DNA of 64,000 bases from Elusimicrobiota bacterium. GTDB lineage: Bacteria; Elusimicrobiota; Elusimicrobia; 2-02-FULL-39-32. This document shows, in pieces, positions 1-27,280 of this stretch. The position numbers and the translations under genes were made by a program. Numbering within the stretch: position 1 is the stretch's first letter; each line of letters starts with the position of its first letter. A model generated the notes under the pieces. It searched no databases. It saw nothing but the letters and a program-made list of their open reading frames with translations, and was not told where the DNA came from. The stretch lies in contig JACPBF010000001.1 in assembly GCA_016180425.1 (NCBI GenBank), positions 1 through 64,000 of the forward strand, read 5' to 3'.

Positions 1-2
1 TT

Positions 3-86
3 GAAATCTATGAACTCAATCAAGACCGCATTGAAAGAGGAGGTACTATTAGATCAGGTCAAATCCTGCTCCTACCTCAAAAATAA
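3..86 (+). CDS. LysM-domain protein, C-terminal end (partial)
   Basis: The third reading frame is open from the window edge to a TAA at 84-86 and encodes the last 27 residues of a protein. The pattern IYELNQDRI, a short gap, then IRSGQILLLP matches the second half of a LysM repeat, where a helix is followed by the 'I.pGQ.L.iP' strand. LysM modules bind peptidoglycan or other N-acetylglucosamine polymers, so this is probably the C-terminal anchoring module of an envelope protein. Its other domains lie outside the window. The assignment rests on a short stretch and is moderately sure. Confidence 0.6.
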   Translation, partial: EIYELNQDRIERGGTIRSGQILLLPQK

Positions 87-202: not shown

Positions 203-856
203 ATGAATGATACTGATTTTGAAAAGCTAGTTTTTGGCATGGCTCATCAAATAAGAAACCCTTGCGGCATTATTCTAGCCAACGCCAGCCAAATTCTTAA
301 AAACAAAAAATTAGATAATGAAAACACCACATCTCTGCAAGCGATTGTGAATAGCATAAAATATCTGGATGCTCGTTTAGATGAGTTTGTAGAATTTTCA
401 AAACCTATGATTTTAAATTTCAAAGAAGTTTCTATTTCGCATTTGTTGCAAGAAGTAATCGCTATTGTCAGAGACAAATCTCATTTGCAAAGAGTGCGCA
501 TCCTGCTAAAAGAAGATAAAAATTTATCACACCCTAAAGCAGATCACCAACTGCTGCTCCTAGCTTTCCTTAATATAGTTTTAAACGCAATTGAGGCCAT
601 GCCTTCCGGAGGCACAGTTTCCATAGAAGCGAAAAAGCTGGATGGGAATTTTACATTTACCTTTAAAGACTCTGGGATTGGCATTCACCCCAAAGACTTA
701 CCTGAAATTTTTTCGCCGTTTTACACAACCAAAGAGGGAAACATTGGCATAGGACTCCCTATAAGCAAAAGGATCATTGAACAACACCAAGGGAATATTG
801 ATATTTCCAGTTTAGAAAAAAAAGGAACAACTGTAACTGTTAAAATACCTGCATAA
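203..856 (+). CDS. Soluble histidine kinase without sensor domain
   Basis: A 217-residue two-component histidine kinase reduced to its catalytic core. The H-box is GMAHQIRNP with phospho-accepting His15. The N-box has Asn124 and Asn128, G1 is DSGIG at 156-160, the F-box is IFSPFYTTK and G2 is GIGLP near 182-186. The order and motifs resemble NtrB-type kinases. No PAS, GAF, HAMP or membrane segment precedes the H-box, so the protein is cytoplasmic and senses nothing obvious itself. It lies 15 nt upstream of a response-regulator gene, its presumed partner and perhaps the source of its input. No clear ribosome-binding site is seen before the ATG. The kinase call is secure; the signal is unknown. 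Confidence 0.9.
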   Translation: MNDTDFEKLVFGMAHQIRNPCGIILANASQILKNKKLDNENTTSLQAIVNSIKYLDARLDEFVEFSKPMILNFKEVSISHLLQEVIAIVRDKSHLQRVRILLKEDKNLSHPKADHQLLLLAFLNIVLNAIEAMPSGGTVSIEAKKLDGNFTFTFKDSGIGIHPKDLPEIFSPFYTTKEGNIGIGLPISKRIIEQHQGNIDISSLEKKGTTVTVKIPA

Positions 857-871
857 AAAAAGAGGAAGATT

Positions 872-2149
872 ATGGCTAAAATTTTAGTTGTGGATGACGA
901 ACATGACATGATTTGGGCTCTGACCAATGTCCTGCTTTCAGAAAATCATACAGTCGTGTCTGTTGACTCTGGGGAAGAAGCTCTTAAAAAAATAGAACAA
1001 ACTCCCTTAGAACTAGTCCTGCTTGATTTCAGGCTGCCAGGCATGGATGGCATTCAGGTCTTGGAAAAAATTAGACAAAAAAAACCTGAACTCCCCGTGA
1101 TCATGGTCACAGGCTATGGGGGAGTTGAAGAGGCGGTGCAGGCCATTAAATTAGGAGCCACAGATTATGTCTCTAAACCTTTTGACAACGACCATTTAAT
1201 AGAGGTAATCAATAAAGCTCTGCAATTAGACACCTTAAAAAAGGGGGGGTTGTTTGAAAAAAGAGTGGTTGAAAAGTTAGAGCCTTTAAGAAGGCCAATC
1301 AAAGGACAGAACCTCTCTTCTATCAGTTCAATTCCTTTTAAGGGAACCAAACAGAATGGCTCTGAGATTAGGGAAGAAAAAATTATTGGAAACAACAAGA
1401 AAACTAAAATTTTTGTCTTTGTCTTTATCTCTCTTAGTTTTCTGTTAACTCTTGGAATTTTAACTAAAAAATTTTATAAACTTGAACCTCAGAAAATAGA
1501 GTACGTCATACCAAACTCAAAAGTTTCTGGGCTAGGGATTGATGGGGAAACCCTTTGGGTGTCAGATTGGTTTACTCAGACCATTTACCAATATCAAATC
1601 CAAGAAAAAAAATTAGTTTTAATTAAATCCTATTCCTTAAATGGTTTTCACCTTACAGGAATCGCTCCAGGGAATAACTCGCTCTATACCTGTGACTCTT
1701 GGAAAAAAATAATTGTTCGCCACCACTTAAATAACGCCTTGGATGTTAGAAATAGTTATCCAAGCCCTGGACCCAACCCTTCCGGACTCTATTTTGACGG
1801 CAAATACCTTTGGAGCTGCGATGCTACCACGCGCAAAATTTATCAGCATGCCTTAGACGATAAATTAACTGTCATTGCTACTTATGAGAGTCCTGGAACA
1901 TTCCCTGTGGGGCTTTTTCACAATAAGGATAATTTTTTTAGCGCGAGCGCCTTGGGCGGAAAAATATTTATAAATTCCATGCAGGAACGCTTTAAACTAG
2001 AGAAAACTTATATTATTAAGGAAGCTATAGAAAAAGGAAAACAGATTTCAGCTTTTACAATTCAAGAAAATAATGTCTGGATCGCTCTAGAAGGGGAGAG
2101 TACGATCATAAAGAAAAGATTAAGCGAACTTGAAAGTTTCTCTCATTAA
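872..2149 (+). CDS. Membrane-anchored response regulator with extracytoplasmic propeller-like domain
   Basis: Residues 1-120 form a receiver domain with the acidic pair Asp8/Asp9, phospho-acceptor Asp52, Thr80 and Lys102. A basic linker leads to one membrane segment at about 179-198. The remaining 225 residues, predicted outside the cytoplasm, contain repeats of the type 'GL.iDGetLWvsD', 'sGLyfDGKYLWscD' and 'sLYtCDsW', which resemble blades of a beta-propeller. No DNA-binding or enzymatic output domain is present. A strong AGAGGAAG ribosome-binding site precedes the ATG. With the soluble kinase upstream it forms an unusual two-component pair in which the regulator rather than the kinase crosses the membrane. 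The receiver is certain; the propeller is inferred from repeats. Confidence 0.88.
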   Translation: MAKILVVDDEHDMIWALTNVLLSENHTVVSVDSGEEALKKIEQTPLELVLLDFRLPGMDGIQVLEKIRQKKPELPVIMVTGYGGVEEAVQAIKLGATDYVSKPFDNDHLIEVINKALQLDTLKKGGLFEKRVVEKLEPLRRPIKGQNLSSISSIPFKGTKQNGSEIREEKIIGNNKKTKIFVFVFISLSFLLTLGILTKKFYKLEPQKIEYVIPNSKVSGLGIDGETLWVSDWFTQTIYQYQIQEKKLVLIKSYSLNGFHLTGIAPGNNSLYTCDSWKKIIVRHHLNNALDVRNSYPSPGPNPSGLYFDGKYLWSCDATTRKIYQHALDDKLTVIATYESPGTFPVGLFHNKDNFFSASALGGKIFINSMQERFKLEKTYIIKEAIEKGKQISAFTIQENNVWIALEGESTIIKKRLSELESFSH

Positions 2150-7388: not shown

Positions 7389-8333
7389 ATGAAGATAACT
7401 TTTCTTTTCCTTCTAATATTTTCTCTGACCAAAGCTTCGCTTGAAGCTGCATTTGAAATTGAAGAACTAGCTGCAGAAGCTAGTTCTTTAAACAATGCCT
7501 ATTCTGCTTTAGGGGATGACCCTTGGGCCATTCTTTATAACCCGGCTCAGGTCATGCGTTTAGAAGGGACACAGCTTTCCATGGGTTATTCCAGTCCACA
7601 TCCTGATTTTGAAAATCTTCAGGCAAAACTTGGGAACTGTATCTTAACCAGACAAATCCTGGATATTGGCTATGGGATCGGGATTCTCTTTGCCGACACC
7701 AATCTCTATTACAGAGAAATTACAGGCTTATTAAATATTGGCAAAAAATTTGGAGAAAAAGAAAATAGATGGGATCTAACTGCTGGCTCCAATTTTAAGC
7801 TGCTCTCTTTAAGGCGAGGAGACCCGCTCAACTCAACTGATCCTGCCCTAAATCCAATCACAATCAATAAATTTTCAGGGGATCTTGGATTAAATTTGAG
7901 AATTCAAAAAACCTACCTAGGAGCTTCCATGCAAAATATTCTCCCTGCAAATTTTGGCAGTTCCTCCAAAGAAAAAATTCCTTTAGAAATAAGAGTGGGG
8001 TTGGGGATAAGGAACATTCTGGAAATAGAAAAATTTCACCTTACTTTAAATCCCATGTTAGAAGTAAGTCATAGAAATAAGGATTTTATATCTCAAGGAG
8101 CTTTACAAATCAAAATTTTAGATAAAGCTGAACTAAATTTTGGAGCGGGAGAAAACAATCTTTCCAGTGGAATCACTTTTTACCTCAATCGCTTAAAACA
8201 AAAAAGAAATGAAAAAATTTTAAGCTCAAAAAAAGAAACATCCGCTTATAAATTAACGCTCAGTTATGAATTTCCTTTGCATGAAACTAGTTCCGAAGGT
8301 TCTTCCCTGGCAGGCATGACCTTTGTGTTCTAA
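7389..8333 (+). CDS. PorV-like outer-membrane beta-barrel protein
   Basis: A 314-residue protein with a signal peptide ending near residue 20 (FLLIFSLTKASLEAA) and then the typical PorV/UPF0164 opening, in which small residues precede 'NNAYSALGDDPWAILYNPA'. The rest alternates hydrophobic and polar residues in strand-length stretches, as in an outer-membrane barrel, and ends in the aromatic F-V-F. PorV-family proteins shuttle or anchor cargo in type IX secretion, and related barrels occur in many phyla without that system. The gene sits precisely between two inverted copies of a palindromic repeat and downstream of a structured RNA candidate. No usual ribosome-binding site is visible because the repeat occupies that position. 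Confidence 0.75.
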   Translation: MKITFLFLLIFSLTKASLEAAFEIEELAAEASSLNNAYSALGDDPWAILYNPAQVMRLEGTQLSMGYSSPHPDFENLQAKLGNCILTRQILDIGYGIGILFADTNLYYREITGLLNIGKKFGEKENRWDLTAGSNFKLLSLRRGDPLNSTDPALNPITINKFSGDLGLNLRIQKTYLGASMQNILPANFGSSSKEKIPLEIRVGLGIRNILEIEKFHLTLNPMLEVSHRNKDFISQGALQIKILDKAELNFGAGENNLSSGITFYLNRLKQKRNEKILSSKKETSAYKLTLSYEFPLHETSSEGSSLAGMTFVF

Positions 8334-10005: not shown

Positions 10006-10162
10006 TGAATAAATATCTATGAATATTATCCAAAGATTATATTTAGAGGGGCTCACTGGGCTTGGCACTCGCATTCTGACAAGCCCAGTGCATGCTGAGC
10101 CCGCAGGGGCGAGCGTCCCCTCTAAATATAATCTTTGGATAATATTCAAAAGATATTCATTC
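10006..10162. repeat. Large palindromic element overlapping a start codon
   Basis: Arms of about 46 nt face each other (10006-10051 and 10117-10162). They include an uninterrupted 31-bp match from GAATATTATCC to the GAGGGG core. Inside lies a second 11-bp hairpin, CACTGGGCTTG at 10054-10064 with CAAGCCCAGTG at 10080-10090. The central part is visibly GC-richer than its surroundings. The element covers the ATG at 10019 and about 45 codons of the next gene while keeping the frame open, like palindromic elements inserted in frame in Rickettsia genes. Confidence 0.8.
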
Positions 10163-13100
10163 ATATCTCTCTTCTTTATCCTAAATTTTAATAAATTCCT
10201 TAACGCGCGTGTTCCTCAATTTAGAGATTTTATAGAGACAAATCCCTGCGCACTAGAAGCGTTTTGGATAGAAAATGAAAATACAAAAATCAGTTCCACG
10301 CTTTTAGAAAAAATTTTATCTGTTTTTGTAGCTCCGCCAAAAAAGTATGAAATCACCCTTAAAACCTGCTCTAATTTTTCTCCAAGTTATATCCTTGCAA
10401 TCTATGACGACATTTATCAAGGAACAGATTTAGCTGTGCGATTAGATCCTCTGGGCAATGGAATTTATAAAGGTAAATTAGATTTTGAAGCATCTCCTAA
10501 AACAAGTGATTCTTTAGGCATGGAAAAAGAAAATTATTATGCAAGAGACTTTCAATTTAAAAAATTGGAATTTTATCAAATCAAAGGAGTCCCAGGTTGG
10601 GTCCATAGCAATCATCTAACCCAGGAGATGTGGGATAAAGGCATAGAAAAAGTTCAAGAAAATGGGAGTTGGCGCATCCATTGCCACAATGGACAAAGAG
10701 AGGTTTGGCTCTTAGGAAAAAATCTAGATAGTTTTAAAGAAATTTTTAGCAGTGTGGGGGGTGTTCAGGTTTGGGTCAATCCCTTTCCTCAGCTTAGCTC
10801 TTCTCTTTCAATGAATGTCATTTTAAAAATAACATCGCTTGCGGAAGAACTCCAAAAAGTTTCTGATGATTTAGGCGTTTGGAGATCTGTGCCTAGTTTA
10901 GAAGGGGTCAAGATTGATTGGAATGGAAAAGAAACAAATCTATCTGAAAATCAAACCGCTTTAGTTAAAAAAGAAAACGGATTTTTAAAAATCCTTTGGA
11001 AAAGCGATGATCTTTTTTTAAAAATTAAACCCATGTCAATCCATCTTAATCTTTTCCGACCCAACAAAAATGGTTTCACAACCATGGATAGTTCCGGAGA
11101 ATACCAGTTTTTTAGCTTAACGCCTCCCCAAACAAGCTGGCAAAAAGGGGTTTGGCAGGAGTGGGTGATCCCAGAGGATGAATTTAAAAATGTGGGCTCG
11201 CAAAAAAAGTTGGAACCTGGTTTTAGATCTGGTCTCTATTTTTTTAAGATACTAGTTACAAACTTTGCTGAAAATAGCATAGATAAAATATTCTCTTTTC
11301 AAATCAGCGGTGAACCTCCGGAAATAAAAGTAAAAGAAATTAAACAAAAAGAATCTTCTGAACTAGAATTTATTTTTGAAAAAAGAAAACTAAACAGCCG
11401 CTTTGATCTGTCTGTTTCCACCTCTCAGCAAGGACCTTTTCATCTACTTTCCAGAGATGTGATTGAAAACCCGCCGCCAGCCTTGCCCTGGACCCCTTAT
11501 ACTCTTTCTCCTGAGGAAAGATGGGAACACTTTAGCGATGATTCCCAAAGGATTCTACTGGATTTTAAAAAAGTAAGAGAAATCAGGGATTTTAAAACAG
11601 CTACAAAACTATTTTTTAAATTTAGAGCTCAGGATGAATTTGGCAATATTTTTAAAGGAAATCCAATAGAATTTGAATGGATAAAAAAAGATCAGAATTC
11701 TCCATTGATAACTATTGAAAGGGGTGAAAGGGGAAAAGTGGAAATAAATGATTTTGGAGAATTAAGCCCTTTACGAGGAACTGTAAAAGAGACATCTTCA
11801 ATAAACAACAGTTTTGTTTGGCTCTCTTTAGTAAAAGAAGGGATCGTAATCGCTTCTGGAACAGTTTTTCTTAACACATCTCTTGCCCCCTGGTCTTTAG
11901 GGATCCCAGAAAAAAACAGCTCTCTTTTACCCAATGGGATTCATTCCCTTAACTTGCATGCGTTTGATATAGATGGCAACGAAACCATTCTGCCGATAGA
12001 ATTAAAAGTAGATATTCTTGATTTTGAACTTAAAATAAAAAATCCTTTTTATACCCAATCCTTTGAAATAGAACAAAATGGAAAAAAGCTTTCATTTATT
12101 AATTTTAATGCTGAGGCTAAAGAAAATTCTTTTTTTACTTTAAACATCTCAGAAAAAAATTGGATAAGCGATTATTTTAATCAAGCAGAACGGCAAATTA
12201 ATAAAAGAATTTTTAGTGAGCATTCTCTAACCACAGGTTCTCATCAAGCTAAAGCAATTTTGAGGCGAGATAGCGGCAGTAAAGAGATAAATTTTGAATT
12301 AATTGTGGATAATCAAAGCCCAAAAATTGAAAAACTTATTGATAAAGAAACTAAAGAAAAACTTCTTAGTTCTCAACTGACTTTAGCAAATATTTTAAAT
12401 AAAGGAACAGTCTCACTCCAGATAAAAGTAAGTGAAGATCAATCCCCCGTAAACCTCACCTACGCTTTAGAAGACTCTATGGATGAAGTTTCAAAAATTC
12501 TATCGCGGGGTGGAAAAACCTTTGTTTCTGAAGAAACCCCGCTCATTTGCCCTCCAAATCAAACAGTCATCCTTGGGATTCTAGCAACGGATGCTGCAGG
12601 GAATTCTTCATCTATAGCTTTTTTCCCTCTCCATTATGATACCCAACCCCCCTCTCTCCAAATGTCATCTATTGAACAAAAAGACCCTGGTTTTAAAAGT
12701 TTCGACCGCAACCATTTTTGGATCTATCTTCAAGAAAAAAACAAGGAGATGATCTTACCCAGATACGATCTAAGTGTCAGTTTAAATCAAGATGGGCCTT
12801 GGCATTTAGTGACTCGTTCTATTGTAGAGGTTGAACCTGACCCATCTGATTGGGTTTGGAACGAACTTCTAAATCAAGAAGAATGGTTTAATATTAAAAA
12901 AATTGAAGAAAAAATTATTCCATTCAGCCTTTCTCTGCAGAAAATTAAACAGGCTTTAAACATAGAACAATTCCCGGAAAATGAAACCCATGGAAAATTT
13001 TACATACGTCTTAGAGCCAAAGATTTTGCCGGAAATGTATTTAGAGGAGAACCCTTTCCCTTTATGTTTTTGTTAGATCGCAGCGCTCCAAAAATTGAGT

Positions 13101-15505
13101 TAGAAACTGAAAACTTTTCAATCATTGATTTTGGCGAAAAAGGTTCATTTATCTCTGGAAGAATTCAGGATGAACCTTTTGAAAATAGCCCCATTTCTGT
13201 TCAACTATGGAAAGAGGATCTAATGATTGCCGAAGAATTTGTTTCTATGAAAATAAATAGAGAATTTCTATTTATGATACCTGAAGAAAAATCACAATAT
13301 TTGCCCAATGGTTCGCATCTTTTAAAAATTAAAACGATTGACATTGACGGCAACAGAGATGAAAAATTAATTCATCTAAATGTAAATAAAAAACCATTTA
13401 AAATAGATCTACCGGAAAAACTTCAAGTAAAATCCCTTGCGGGATTTGAGGGACAGGGACAAGCCTTGGATCTGGAACTTCCAGTCATCCCCAATTCCAA
13501 ACTAAATTTAAGAGTCAATGGAAAAGAAATTTTTAAAGATTATTCCATAGGTTTAAATAACACTCTAAAAACAGTTATTAATCTTCCCTTTAAACTTTCA
13601 GCTGGGGAACATCCTGCAATGATACAATTCATTAAAAATGGGAAAAGCATTTCCAAACTTTTTACTCTGGTTTTAGATCAAGGCGATTTCTTTAACGATC
13701 CTCCAGAGTTAAGTTTAAGCGGTCTGCCTGGGAACATACGCATTTATGATTTAGGTCAGTATGGGGGGCTTTCAGGCACCGTTCGAGATAAGCCATTCCA
13801 AAATGATAATTTTACTCAAATCACTTTGGAAAAAGATGGAATTTCAATTGCAACTACTGTGGTCAGAACGGATAGCGATCTTTTATACCGCTGGGAGCTC
13901 ATAGTGCCTCAGTCCGCTGGAACGCTCCTAAAAAATGGGGAACAAAATTTAACGCTCATTGCTAAAGATTCAGATGGCAATGTTACAAAAGAGGAGTTTA
14001 AAGCGATCTTAGACATTGCCCCGCTAAATATAGAAATTGAGGAGCCCTATTTTATTCAAAGCAACCTTTTATTTGACCAGAGAAAAAAAAGCAGTTTTCC
14101 TTTAAAAGCTGTGCTTAAAGAAAATAGCGAATTCAGTTTAGAAATAGATGGAAAATTTTTAGCCCAAGGAATTTTTACAGGACAAAGAAAAAAATTTGAA
14201 GAGATTTTGGAAAGTGATTTTATCCTGGCAGAAGGGGCCCACGCTGCAAACTTGACTTTAAGCCGGGGCAAAGAAAAAATCAATAAACAATTTAAAGTAT
14301 TTGTGGATAATAGTCCTCCAAAACTTCTTGAACTCTCTGAAGAAAATTCTGGAATAAAATTAAAAGAAGAGATAGAAAACAAACTTAAAATTAGAAATTT
14401 AAAATTCTCCCTTAAACTTAATGAACCAAATTTTAAAGAAGGCAGGGTATCCATGGATCAAGATTATTCCAAAATGTTAAGAAATTTAAGCCTTGGCTTT
14501 AAATTTAAAGATCAATTCGAACTCTTTCTTTCTACTACAACACCTCATTATTTAGGCATAGAACTAGAAGATCTCGCTGGCAATAGCAGCAGAACCTTTT
14601 TTCTTCTTTCATCCCATTTTGATTCTGATCCTATTCTAAATAACAACTCCTTAACCCCTCCCACATTAAAAATAAACGCCAAACTTAAAGATAGCGTATT
14701 CCTTGAAGGTTCTGCAGAGCCAAATCCAGCTCTTAGCATTGTTTTAATTGAAAAAAAAGGAGAACTTCTGGGAAAAGCTCCAGTCTATTTTCAAAATGGA
14801 GAAAATAAAAGCCTTTGGAGCAAAAAATTAGAGTCATTAGAGCCAAGAGATTATGAAATATTTGCTTATGCGCAAGATGAATCTGGCAAAAAATCTCCTT
14901 TATCAGTCCCCGTAAGGTTCACCATTTATAAAACTGAAGGGGCTAAACCTAAACTAAATGATTTTACAAATGGCAGAGGGATCTACACTAAATCTAGGAA
15001 ACCAACGCTTTCCGGAAATAGCGGGATGCCAAAAACTCAAATGCAAATCTTTGAAACTGGGAATTATATTGGCTATGCATTTTCTGACTTGGAAGGGAAC
15101 TTTTCTTTTACTCCAGAAGAAAATCTAAAAAATGGCTGGAAAAATTTCGTCATTGTAGTTTTTAATTCGGATGGGGAAAGAATTGAAAGCGAGCCTTTGC
15201 AAATCTATCTCTCCGCATCAGATCTGCCTGAAGAAAATTTAAAATCCTTTCTCAAAGCAAAAAAGGAGATAGATCTTCGTTTTACCCCAAACCATGATGG
15301 GATCAATGACTCTATTTCCTTTGATCCAGCAGATGTTCCTCTATCTATTTTGCAGTTTAGAAAAGGAAAAATAGTTAAAACAATCACTGAAAAAGAACGG
15401 GCTTTTTGGGATGGCACCAATGAAAACGGAACAGACTGCGAAATAGGACTCTACTTAGCGCGCACTAGCCAAGGCAGAAAACTTGTCATTTCTTTATACA
15501 GATGA
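10019..15505 (+). CDS. Giant secreted repeat protein with gliding-motility/FlgD-type C-terminal domain
   Basis: An 1828-residue protein. After about 45 residues encoded by a palindromic element comes a hydrophobic export segment (YSFISLFFILNF). The body contains about three long related repeats, each with a 'fDLSvS...GPfHL..R' block, a 'kFRaqDefGNifkG' block, a 'G.V.d.pf..' block and a 'LPNG.h.L...a.DiDGN' block, typical of Ig-like or cadherin-like modules. Two shorter Ig-like units lie near the C-terminus. The last 70 residues hold FTPNHDGIND and FWDGTNENG, the mark of gliding-motility-associated or FlgD-like C-terminal domains used for surface sorting. Probably cell-surface. The true start is uncertain; a GTG at 10088 is another in-frame option. 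Confidence 0.8.
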   Translation: MNIIQRLYLEGLTGLGTRILTSPVHAEPAGASVPSKYNLWIIFKRYSFISLFFILNFNKFLNARVPQFRDFIETNPCALEAFWIENENTKISSTLLEKILSVFVAPPKKYEITLKTCSNFSPSYILAIYDDIYQGTDLAVRLDPLGNGIYKGKLDFEASPKTSDSLGMEKENYYARDFQFKKLEFYQIKGVPGWVHSNHLTQEMWDKGIEKVQENGSWRIHCHNGQREVWLLGKNLDSFKEIFSSVGGVQVWVNPFPQLSSSLSMNVILKITSLAEELQKVSDDLGVWRSVPSLEGVKIDWNGKETNLSENQTALVKKENGFLKILWKSDDLFLKIKPMSIHLNLFRPNKNGFTTMDSSGEYQFFSLTPPQTSWQKGVWQEWVIPEDEFKNVGSQKKLEPGFRSGLYFFKILVTNFAENSIDKIFSFQISGEPPEIKVKEIKQKESSELEFIFEKRKLNSRFDLSVSTSQQGPFHLLSRDVIENPPPALPWTPYTLSPEERWEHFSDDSQRILLDFKKVREIRDFKTATKLFFKFRAQDEFGNIFKGNPIEFEWIKKDQNSPLITIERGERGKVEINDFGELSPLRGTVKETSSINNSFVWLSLVKEGIVIASGTVFLNTSLAPWSLGIPEKNSSLLPNGIHSLNLHAFDIDGNETILPIELKVDILDFELKIKNPFYTQSFEIEQNGKKLSFINFNAEAKENSFFTLNISEKNWISDYFNQAERQINKRIFSEHSLTTGSHQAKAILRRDSGSKEINFELIVDNQSPKIEKLIDKETKEKLLSSQLTLANILNKGTVSLQIKVSEDQSPVNLTYALEDSMDEVSKILSRGGKTFVSEETPLICPPNQTVILGILATDAAGNSSSIAFFPLHYDTQPPSLQMSSIEQKDPGFKSFDRNHFWIYLQEKNKEMILPRYDLSVSLNQDGPWHLVTRSIVEVEPDPSDWVWNELLNQEEWFNIKKIEEKIIPFSLSLQKIKQALNIEQFPENETHGKFYIRLRAKDFAGNVFRGEPFPFMFLLDRSAPKIELETENFSIIDFGEKGSFISGRIQDEPFENSPISVQLWKEDLMIAEEFVSMKINREFLFMIPEEKSQYLPNGSHLLKIKTIDIDGNRDEKLIHLNVNKKPFKIDLPEKLQVKSLAGFEGQGQALDLELPVIPNSKLNLRVNGKEIFKDYSIGLNNTLKTVINLPFKLSAGEHPAMIQFIKNGKSISKLFTLVLDQGDFFNDPPELSLSGLPGNIRIYDLGQYGGLSGTVRDKPFQNDNFTQITLEKDGISIATTVVRTDSDLLYRWELIVPQSAGTLLKNGEQNLTLIAKDSDGNVTKEEFKAILDIAPLNIEIEEPYFIQSNLLFDQRKKSSFPLKAVLKENSEFSLEIDGKFLAQGIFTGQRKKFEEILESDFILAEGAHAANLTLSRGKEKINKQFKVFVDNSPPKLLELSEENSGIKLKEEIENKLKIRNLKFSLKLNEPNFKEGRVSMDQDYSKMLRNLSLGFKFKDQFELFLSTTTPHYLGIELEDLAGNSSRTFFLLSSHFDSDPILNNNSLTPPTLKINAKLKDSVFLEGSAEPNPALSIVLIEKKGELLGKAPVYFQNGENKSLWSKKLESLEPRDYEIFAYAQDESGKKSPLSVPVRFTIYKTEGAKPKLNDFTNGRGIYTKSRKPTLSGNSGMPKTQMQIFETGNYIGYAFSDLEGNFSFTPEENLKNGWKNFVIVVFNSDGERIESEPLQIYLSASDLPEENLKSFLKAKKEIDLRFTPNHDGINDSISFDPADVPLSILQFRKGKIVKTITEKERAFWDGTNENGTDCEIGLYLARTSQGRKLVISLYR

Positions 15506-25992: not shown

Positions 25993-26021
25993 TTGACACT
26001 TGTTCTATTCTCTGATAAATT
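25993..26021 (+). promoter_or_regulatory. Promoter of the propeller/sorting-domain gene
   Basis: TTGACA at 25993-25998 and TAAATT at 26016-26021 with a 17-nt spacer. The predicted start of transcription falls within about 2 nt of the ATG at 26030, giving a leaderless or nearly leaderless mRNA. Confidence 0.65.
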
Positions 26022-26029
26022 TATATTTA

Positions 26030-27280
26030 ATGAAGTTCTTTTTAAAAGTACCCTTAGCTCTTTCCTTTGTTTTTTTTCATACCAATAGTATCCTTGCGGC
26101 ATGGAAATCTCAAAATTCTGGCGTTACCACTGATCTTAATGCAGTTCATTTCCAAGATTCTGAAACAGGATGGACTGTTGGCTCTCAAGGAGTAATACTA
26201 AAAACCACAAACGGCGGCTCTACATGGAGTTCTCAAACCTCTGGAACCACAACAGCTTTAAGAGATGTGCATTTCATCAATTCTTCTACAGGTCTTGTAG
26301 TTGGAAGCGATGGGGTTATTCTTAAATCGTCCGATACTGGAACTACATGGAGCGCAATCACCAGCGGAATTAACAACATTCTTTATAGTGTCTATTGGGT
26401 CAATCTCAGTACTGCCTGGGCCGCTGGGGAACTGGGCAGAATAAGAAAATCTCAAGATGGCGGAGCAAGCTGGTCCAATGGCGCTTTAAATGGAAGCACC
26501 TCTAACGACTTAAGGGCGATCTTTTTCATCAATACATCTACAGGATGGGCAGTTGGTAATTCCGGCACAATTTTGAAAACCCTAGATGGAGGAGAAAATT
26601 GGAGCGCTCAGACTAGCGGTACAACTGAAAATTTAAGATCACTATTTTTTATTAGTGTTTCCACAGGCTGGGTGGCAGGCGCAAATGGTGTGATTCGCAA
26701 ATCTACAGACAGCGGTTCAACTTGGAGTTCCTTAATTAGTACTACAACTAATTTTAATGCTCTACATTTTATAAGCACAACAACCGGATGGGTTGTAGGA
26801 AATTCTGGAATTGTTGTTAAATCCAGCGACAGTGGAAGAAATTTCGAAAGTGAAAAAAGCTCCACAACTAATCAATTAAATGATGTCTTCTTTTCTACTG
26901 ACACTGTTGGCTATGCGGTAGGAGCATCCGGAACCATAATAAAAAATTCAACAACATCAACAACAGAAACTGCCGCAAGCGAGTCCACCCCCCAAGGATC
27001 CCTAAAAGCGATCAATAATCTTTTTGACCCTTCTAAAGCCGAGGTAACAACCATAGAGTACAGTATTTTAAATCAAGGAAATGTTGTGATACGCATTTAT
27101 AACATGCAGGGTAGAAAGGTTAAAACCTTAGTCAATGAAGCGAAAAATGCAAGCACCAACTATTCCATTACTTGGGATGGAAAAAATGAAGATGGTGAAA
27201 TAGTAGGCAGTGGAATTTATTTTGTGCATATTGAAGGACCTAGTTTTTCTAAAACTCAAAAAATAGCTATTGTCCAATAA
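26030..27280 (+). CDS. Secreted YCF48-like beta-propeller with T9SS-type C-terminal sorting domain
   Basis: About 416 residues. A signal peptide (MKFFLKVPLALSFVFF) is followed by seven blades of about 42 residues, each with 'fFi(N/S)..TGW.vG..G.i.Kt.dGG..W', the Ycf48/BNR propeller motif. Residues from about 330 on form an FlgD-like immunoglobulin domain (VRIYNMQGRKVKTL, then WDGKNEDGEIVGSGIYF) like the type A sorting signals of type IX secretion. It is likely exported to the cell surface. I chose the ATG at 26030 over 26000 because it begins the signal peptide and lies at the promoter's predicted start site. The PorV-like gene follows without a gap. Confidence 0.85.
   Translation: MKFFLKVPLALSFVFFHTNSILAAWKSQNSGVTTDLNAVHFQDSETGWTVGSQGVILKTTNGGSTWSSQTSGTTTALRDVHFINSSTGLVVGSDGVILKSSDTGTTWSAITSGINNILYSVYWVNLSTAWAAGELGRIRKSQDGGASWSNGALNGSTSNDLRAIFFINTSTGWAVGNSGTILKTLDGGENWSAQTSGTTENLRSLFFISVSTGWVAGANGVIRKSTDSGSTWSSLISTTTNFNALHFISTTTGWVVGNSGIVVKSSDSGRNFESEKSSTTNQLNDVFFSTDTVGYAVGASGTIIKNSTTSTTETAASESTPQGSLKAINNLFDPSKAEVTTIEYSILNQGNVVIRIYNMQGRKVKTLVNEAKNASTNYSITWDGKNEDGEIVGSGIYFVHIEGPSFSKTQKIAIVQ

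Follow-up and report, generated by a model that had tools for sequence, protein, structure and literature searches.

A soluble histidine kinase and a response regulator that crosses the membrane, with a receiver on the cytoplasmic side and a predicted periplasmic beta-propeller, are encoded next to each other at the start of the window (the whole stretch of 64,000 nucleotides that was analysed). A soluble kinase with a receiver-helix-propeller regulator is rated here as a new form of two-component signalling; response regulators normally act in the cytoplasm. There is an even chance that a trans-envelope assembly for surface proteins is controlled by the pair at its cytoplasmic end, from the inside out and without transcription. 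If this is true, phosphorylation inside the cell can act directly on the outer envelope through a receiver wired to an external propeller. A phrase search, with most subscription literature outside its scope, turned up no publication describing a response regulator bound or anchored to the membrane.

The window forms the first part of a 659-kb contig (C18) in a genome of 2.6 Mb that is 98% complete. The kinase (217 aa) is encoded at 203-856 (+) and the regulator (425 aa) at 872-2149 (+), 15 bases past the kinase stop, exactly where the original prediction had placed the two genes. The gene after the regulator is convergent and encodes an rpoD-type sigma factor. Between these two genes lies a 22-bp perfect stem with an 11-base loop (2229-2283, no strand), which has a fold of -31.5 kcal/mol (z -8.3), matches itself on the opposite strand and is probably a two-way terminator.

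The chain of the kinase begins right at the H-box, and its Pfam content is HisKA (8.3e-07) and HATPase_c (1.1e-25) only. The phospho-acceptor histidine is H15 (245-247, +). The ATP-binding N and G boxes of a two-component kinase are also present, as N128 (584-586, +), D156 (668-670, +) with G158 and G160 in the DxGxG motif, and G182 and G184 in the GxG motif. No sensor part was found by Pfam on the 217 residues, and the one stretch with weak hydrophobicity, starting at residue 117, belongs to the catalytic domain as its N-box helix. A kinase made up of an H-box and a catalytic domain, with no sensing or membrane part, is what had been described from the sequence, and the Pfam and residue checks bear it out. 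Truncation of the kinase gene was ruled out because in-frame stops lie upstream and relatives in the family likewise have 217-219 aa.

The regulator begins with a receiver domain (residues 4-113; 881-1210, +; Pfam Response_reg 4.3e-32). Its acidic pair D8 and D9, the phospho-acceptor D52 (1025-1027), T80 and K102 are all present, as in a two-component receiver, and are invariant across 12 aligned homologues. A basic linker with 14 K/R against 7 D/E (residues 119-178; 1226-1405, +) leads to a single membrane helix (residues 180-198; 1409-1465, +), which has a hydropathy of 2.56 and is the only hydrophobic segment. Beyond the helix lies a predicted periplasmic five-bladed propeller (residues 209-424; 1496-2143, +). 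No Pfam family other than Response_reg exceeds its cut-off on the regulator, and no cytoplasmic output domain was found there; only linker, helix and propeller follow the receiver. Neither protein of the pair showed a DNA-binding or enzymatic output domain.

The regulator was modelled by AlphaFold2 with 12 homologues. In the model the receiver has a pLDDT of mostly 72-93, the linker is predicted to be disordered (pLDDT below 50 for most of residues 125-179) and the helix spans residues 180-201. Residues 209-424 form 20 strands and a closing strand at a pLDDT of about 90-96, that is, five four-stranded blades. Foldseek places the propeller nearest to the five-bladed glutaminyl cyclases among PDB folds (TM-score over the target 0.64-0.73, 11-15% identity). 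The likeness is taken as one of fold only, and a glutaminyl cyclase enzyme was not adopted. Homologues of the propeller give weak SGL/NHL/Vgb_lyase matches, and a PDB sequence search with the propeller profile returned only weak LRP and Vgb propeller matches. Pfam, hydropathy and AlphaFold2 thus agree with the original prediction of a receiver, a basic linker, one membrane helix and a propeller-like part without an output domain, and the structure prediction it had proposed for the C-terminal part resolves the latter into five blades.

Evidence that this arrangement is genuine is provided by its conservation. All named relatives recovered by protein search are metagenome genomes of Elusimicrobia; the one in the same genus, Elusimicrobia bacterium RIFCSPLOWO2_02_FULL_39_32, is 93-94% identical. 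Proteins homologous over the full length share 94% identity within the genus, 54% within the family and 31-40% in other families of the class. The propeller family is spread through environmental Elusimicrobiota, with profile matches in 113 of 295 genomes of the phylum and none, among the matches listed, in f10, a family of small genomes (about 1.3-1.8 Mb). The survey covers 103 propeller proteins in 98 loci, 83 proteins in a first set and 20 in a second; gene calls in relatives are six-frame readings, and other phyla were covered by one narrow pattern scan only.

A membrane helix lies directly N-terminal to the propeller in all 103 proteins. The spacing between the two has a median of 13 residues in the 83 proteins measured, and the cytoplasmic flank of the helix is the more positive one in 54 of these, against 18. 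A receiver is carried by 50 of the 83 propeller proteins of the first set, with the full DDD[T/S]K residues in 46 of the 50, and a kinase lies directly upstream in 40 of the 46 receiver-bearing loci with enough upstream DNA.

A chance fusion or an assembly error could in principle join a receiver gene to a membrane propeller gene, and a sequencing error between the receiver and the membrane segment had been named as a danger. The probability of such an artefact is negligible, since about 50 proteins, from many Elusimicrobiota families and independent assemblies, show the same fused order within one open frame. The search for homologous pairs therefore confirms that the order of receiver, membrane helix and propeller is conserved. 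Receiver and propeller are far from always being separate proteins in homologues: a separate receiver gene was seen only in L166 and L167, where it is genuine and lies between a kinase that has its histidine and a propeller partner without a receiver.

The cytoplasmic end of the propeller protein is interchangeable. Other first-set proteins carry in its place a degenerate receiver, TPR repeats, a long or short coiled coil, or a coiled coil with a degenerate receiver; one of the seven scored as degenerate receivers (L046) is probably a mere truncated reading frame. The kinases vary as well, and giant coiled-coil forms have 900 to 2600 aa. A coiled-coil start motif, ETARLALRWALxKIR, is shared by giant kinases, by separate proteins encoded upstream of kinases, and by proteins in which it is fused to the helix-propeller part. 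This shared motif suggests that the coiled-coil-motif proteins, the kinases and the helix-propeller proteins act in one complex.

Replacement of the receiver is matched by a change in the kinase. Among 54 adjacent kinase/propeller pairs with complete data, 44 keep the kinase histidine together with receiver D52 and K102. In the other 10 the kinase has no histidine (Arg in seven, Gln in three) and its partner has TPR repeats or a degenerate receiver. Mixed pairs number 0 of 54. Two further kinases without the histidine (Asn and Asp; L169, L170) are paired with degenerate receivers. This joint loss of the histidine and the receiver Asp/Lys ties kinase and receiver together as partners, and it indirectly supports the predicted phosphotransfer from the window kinase to its receiver.

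The match should not be read as many independent events, because two changes suffice for the ten histidine losses on a quick tree of kinase cores; loss and gain are indistinguishable on that tree, and an independent-pairs test on the joint loss had no power.

The histidine-less kinases of the 54 pairs retain the N, DxGxG and GxG residues, so ATP binding is expected and they should still be able to bind ATP. Together with the two further cases there are twelve kinase-like proteins of this kind that keep ATP-binding residues (L110, L112, L113, L115, L107, L108, L132, L051, L066, L068, L169 and L170); one ATP-binding glycine differs in L169. By their sequences, these twelve are a natural set of histidine pseudokinases beside TPR or dead-receiver partners, and the gene pair, as predicted from the same residues, outlives phosphotransfer. 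The family thus offers a natural case of a two-component pair turned into a complex without phosphotransfer, in a phylum with little experimental work. Such a conversion makes it testable what these pairs do beyond the transfer of phosphate.

One reading of these variants is that kinase-like and propeller proteins form a structural plug which anchors an envelope assembly to cytoplasmic coiled coils, with phosphotransfer being ancestral or a minor modulation. Non-phosphorylatable versions are retained in several families with the ATP-binding residues of the kinase kept, TPR repeats and coiled coils replace the receiver, and coiled coils of up to about 2600 aa occur on kinases or propeller proteins, all of which fits a static scaffold. 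Such a scaffold is nonetheless improbable, as a whole and in the minor role it gives to phosphotransfer: most kinase-bearing lineages, the window's included (the 44 of 54 pairs), strictly keep the phosphotransfer residues, for which a pure scaffold would have no use.

The pair belongs to a larger gene cassette, of which the window holds one more piece. In frame 3, positions 3-86 (+) read EIYELNQDRIERGGTIRSGQILLLPQK followed by a stop, the last 27 codons of a gene for a PorV/PorP-like barrel with a coiled coil and a LysM domain, which is cut by the contig start. This tail matches residues 448-473 of the PorV-LysM protein from genome G003 at 73% identity. The rest of the gene was not found elsewhere in the genome, where about eight or nine barrel paralogues occur; the matches are paralogues 28-47% identical and the 73% tail only. 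Contigs of two species (G000 and G001; window 1-86 and the end of L033) break within about 30 codons of the 3' end of the barrel-LysM gene, perhaps because assembly is halted by a repeat among the genes upstream.

Full-length barrel-LysM copies lie upstream of the same kinase in L034, L035, L037 and L041. The order of the cassette was read from such relatives, in which the kinase is intact on longer contigs. In these four loci an fn3 protein with a type IX-like C-terminal sorting domain (CTD) comes first, followed by a small CTD protein, the barrel with coiled coil and LysM, the kinase, and the receiver-helix-propeller protein. The barrel and CTD assignments rest on homology: the L037 barrel reaches 74.1 bits (E 1.4e-20) against NF033709, the PorV/PorQ family, with a cut-off of 90, and the window itself holds the LysM tail only. 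A structure model of the barrel-LysM protein (pLDDT 49.5) was too poor for use.

The association recurs in the survey. A barrel-LysM gene lies within 2.5 kb upstream of 20 of the 25 short kinases (up to 720 aa); by chance a barrel gene would be expected there in about one case in a hundred, a rough figure from some nine barrel paralogues per 2.6 Mb. A CTD protein lies within 5 kb of 19 of the 25. At 14 loci, from some of the lineages whose kinases are giant coiled-coil forms, a search within 2.5 kb gave no barrel gene; in such lineages the fetched DNA was mostly too short to reach one. Where the DNA reached far enough (L044, L052, L114), a barrel lies 5-6.5 kb upstream, and LysM-only genes adjoin the regulator in several giant-kinase loci (L038, L039, L060, L118).

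Other parts of the window encode related proteins. A further PorP/SprF-like barrel gene, without LysM, lies at 7389-8333. At 26000-27280 a YCF48-like repeat protein (PSII_BNR) ends in a FlgD_ig/Por_Secre_tail type IX-like sorting domain and is likely another surface cargo. An 1828-aa protein (10019-15505), with a Big_13 bacterial Ig-like domain near its C-terminus and otherwise no Pfam family, is a candidate large surface protein.

The barrel can be present when the kinase is not. In 12 second-set loci (L152-L157 and L160-L165) the barrel-LysM gene is followed directly by a degenerate-receiver-helix-propeller gene, and no kinase was found nearby. The barrel gene is also kept in L123-L125 and L129, where the cytoplasmic part is a coiled coil. 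As judged from these gene neighbourhoods, propeller and barrel are the constant core of the system and the cytoplasmic module is variable. The reversed topology of the original prediction stands; the surface and outer-membrane cassette resembling a type IX secretion system (T9SS) and the interchangeable cytoplasmic module went unseen in it.

Eight long coiled-coil propeller proteins have neither barrel nor kinase neighbours. One of them (L049, 1242-7830), a long coiled coil followed by a helix and a propeller, lies beside Wza-like export and Wzc-like tyrosine-kinase genes, which suggests that the propeller module may also serve exopolysaccharide export. Similar long coiled-coil proteins occur in L054, L056 and L059; neighbour genes were scanned in L049 only.

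The direction of the signal can be considered in the light of these loci. The propeller protein could act as the sensor subunit of a sensor kinase that has been split in two. The state of the envelope (barrel occupancy, glycan or cell-wall contact) would then move propeller and helix, and a kinase-docked receiver would pass on the signal or feedback while the kinase acts on other regulators. Such an outside-in flow would suit a window kinase that has no sensor domain of its own, and kinases stay adjacent even where the receiver is replaced by TPR repeats or a dead receiver. In the hybrid systems of Bacteroidota, too, propellers usually serve as the sensor domains (PMC3243724), and additional receiver genes lie nearby in some loci (L113, L122, L135). 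However, propeller and barrel persist without any kinase in the 12 loci above, the window cassette contains no regulator with a DNA-binding output and is followed by a convergent gene, and standard phosphate transfer is impossible for the kinases without histidine. Outside-in signalling, including envelope sensing by the propeller and relay through a docked receiver, is therefore unlikely.

The persistence of propeller and barrel in those 12 loci suits a structural part or effector of the envelope better than a kinase-feeding sensor. Since propeller and barrel persist without a kinase and a functional receiver, the propeller's job is seemingly not to feed the kinase, and so inside-out action is favoured over both outside-in signalling and a static scaffold. 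Of the two options in the original prediction, an inside-out signal to the envelope has thus gained ground through the 12 kinase-less loci, and external binding that feeds back on the kinase has lost it.

In the inside-out mechanism proposed here, a surface protein with a type IX-like C-terminal domain would sit on the PorV/PorP-like barrel in the outer membrane. This barrel would grip peptidoglycan with its periplasmic coiled coil and LysM domain. The propeller of the inner-membrane protein would dock on the periplasmic side of the barrel or on a partner near the cell wall. A cytoplasmic cue, delivered in relatives by the long coiled coils fused to the kinase, would drive the soluble kinase to phosphorylate the receiver. 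Phosphorylation would alter how helix and propeller are spaced or how they oligomerise, and in this way the holding, positioning or secretion of the surface protein may be changed. Because helix and propeller, mostly with barrel-LysM, are constant and the cytoplasmic module varies, kinase and receiver may be read as an optional regulatory plug on the inner-membrane propeller subunit.

A more specific form of the inside-out proposal is that receiver phosphorylation directly changes how the periplasmic propeller holds or drives the outer-membrane surface-protein assembly, and that relatives use a phosphotransfer-free version made of a pseudokinase and a TPR or dead-receiver partner. This form is tentative, its chances being somewhat short of even.

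The genome holds other pieces of a T9SS-like apparatus. A SprA-like 1869-aa frame has four matching segments, the best at 49.5 bits with a cut-off of 200, and at least 11 CTD-like domains are present. The search for a PorU sortase gave CTD-region matches only, and no catalytic part was found. A working T9SS is not established, because the barrel and SprA matches (74.1 of 90 bits and 49.5 of 200) fall below the curated cut-offs.

Several known systems share parts of this design. Mycobacterial PknD has the same order of cytoplasmic signalling domain, one membrane helix and external propeller. It differs in being a Ser/Thr kinase with a six-bladed NHL propeller and no receiver or histidine-kinase partner.

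In the hybrid two-component systems of Bacteroidota, one chain carries two 7-bladed Reg_prop propellers and a YYY domain, which feed its kinase, and has a transcriptional output (PMC3243724). These resemble the Elusimicrobiota pair in having a propeller outside, a membrane helix, and kinase and receiver inside. In the Elusimicrobiota, by contrast, a single five-bladed propeller is fused after the receiver and the kinase is a separate soluble protein. Identity with the hybrid systems was rejected, as there are two genes and no HTH; Reg_prop was matched in one of 13 propellers, at E 0.02, and a YYY domain in none.

PorXY is a two-component pair in a T9SS context, in which PorX acts on a sigma factor (PMC7712824). 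Both pairs are tied to a T9SS-type surface CTD protein. PorY, however, includes a membrane region and PorX ends in a PglZ domain and acts on the sigma factor, whereas the Elusimicrobiota regulator crosses the membrane and contains neither a PglZ nor a sigma-binding part. The regulator was rejected as a PorX (for NF052313 the receiver part alone matches, with 72.7 bits where the cut-off is 300), and no protein anywhere in the genome exceeds that cut-off.

The Elusimicrobiota assembly may work most like the PorP-PorE-CTD complex of Porphyromonas gingivalis, in which the propeller-bearing PorE binds the barrel PorP, and PorP in turn holds a type B CTD protein; genes of the porP and porE types often lie side by side (PMC9143113). 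Like that complex, the proposed Elusimicrobiota assembly would bring together an outer-membrane barrel, a surface CTD protein, a periplasmic propeller partner and a peptidoglycan-binding domain. Of the PorE-type domains only the propeller was found in the window regulator, with no OmpA domain, and the TPR repeats of some relatives lie N-terminal to the membrane helix, unlike a PorE layout. PorE is a lipoprotein with TPR, propeller, a carboxypeptidase-regulatory-like fold and an OmpA domain, and it has no inner-membrane anchor, receiver or kinase. In the Elusimicrobiota, it is the barrel that carries the peptidoglycan-binding domain (LysM), and the propeller is linked to a receiver and to the inner membrane.
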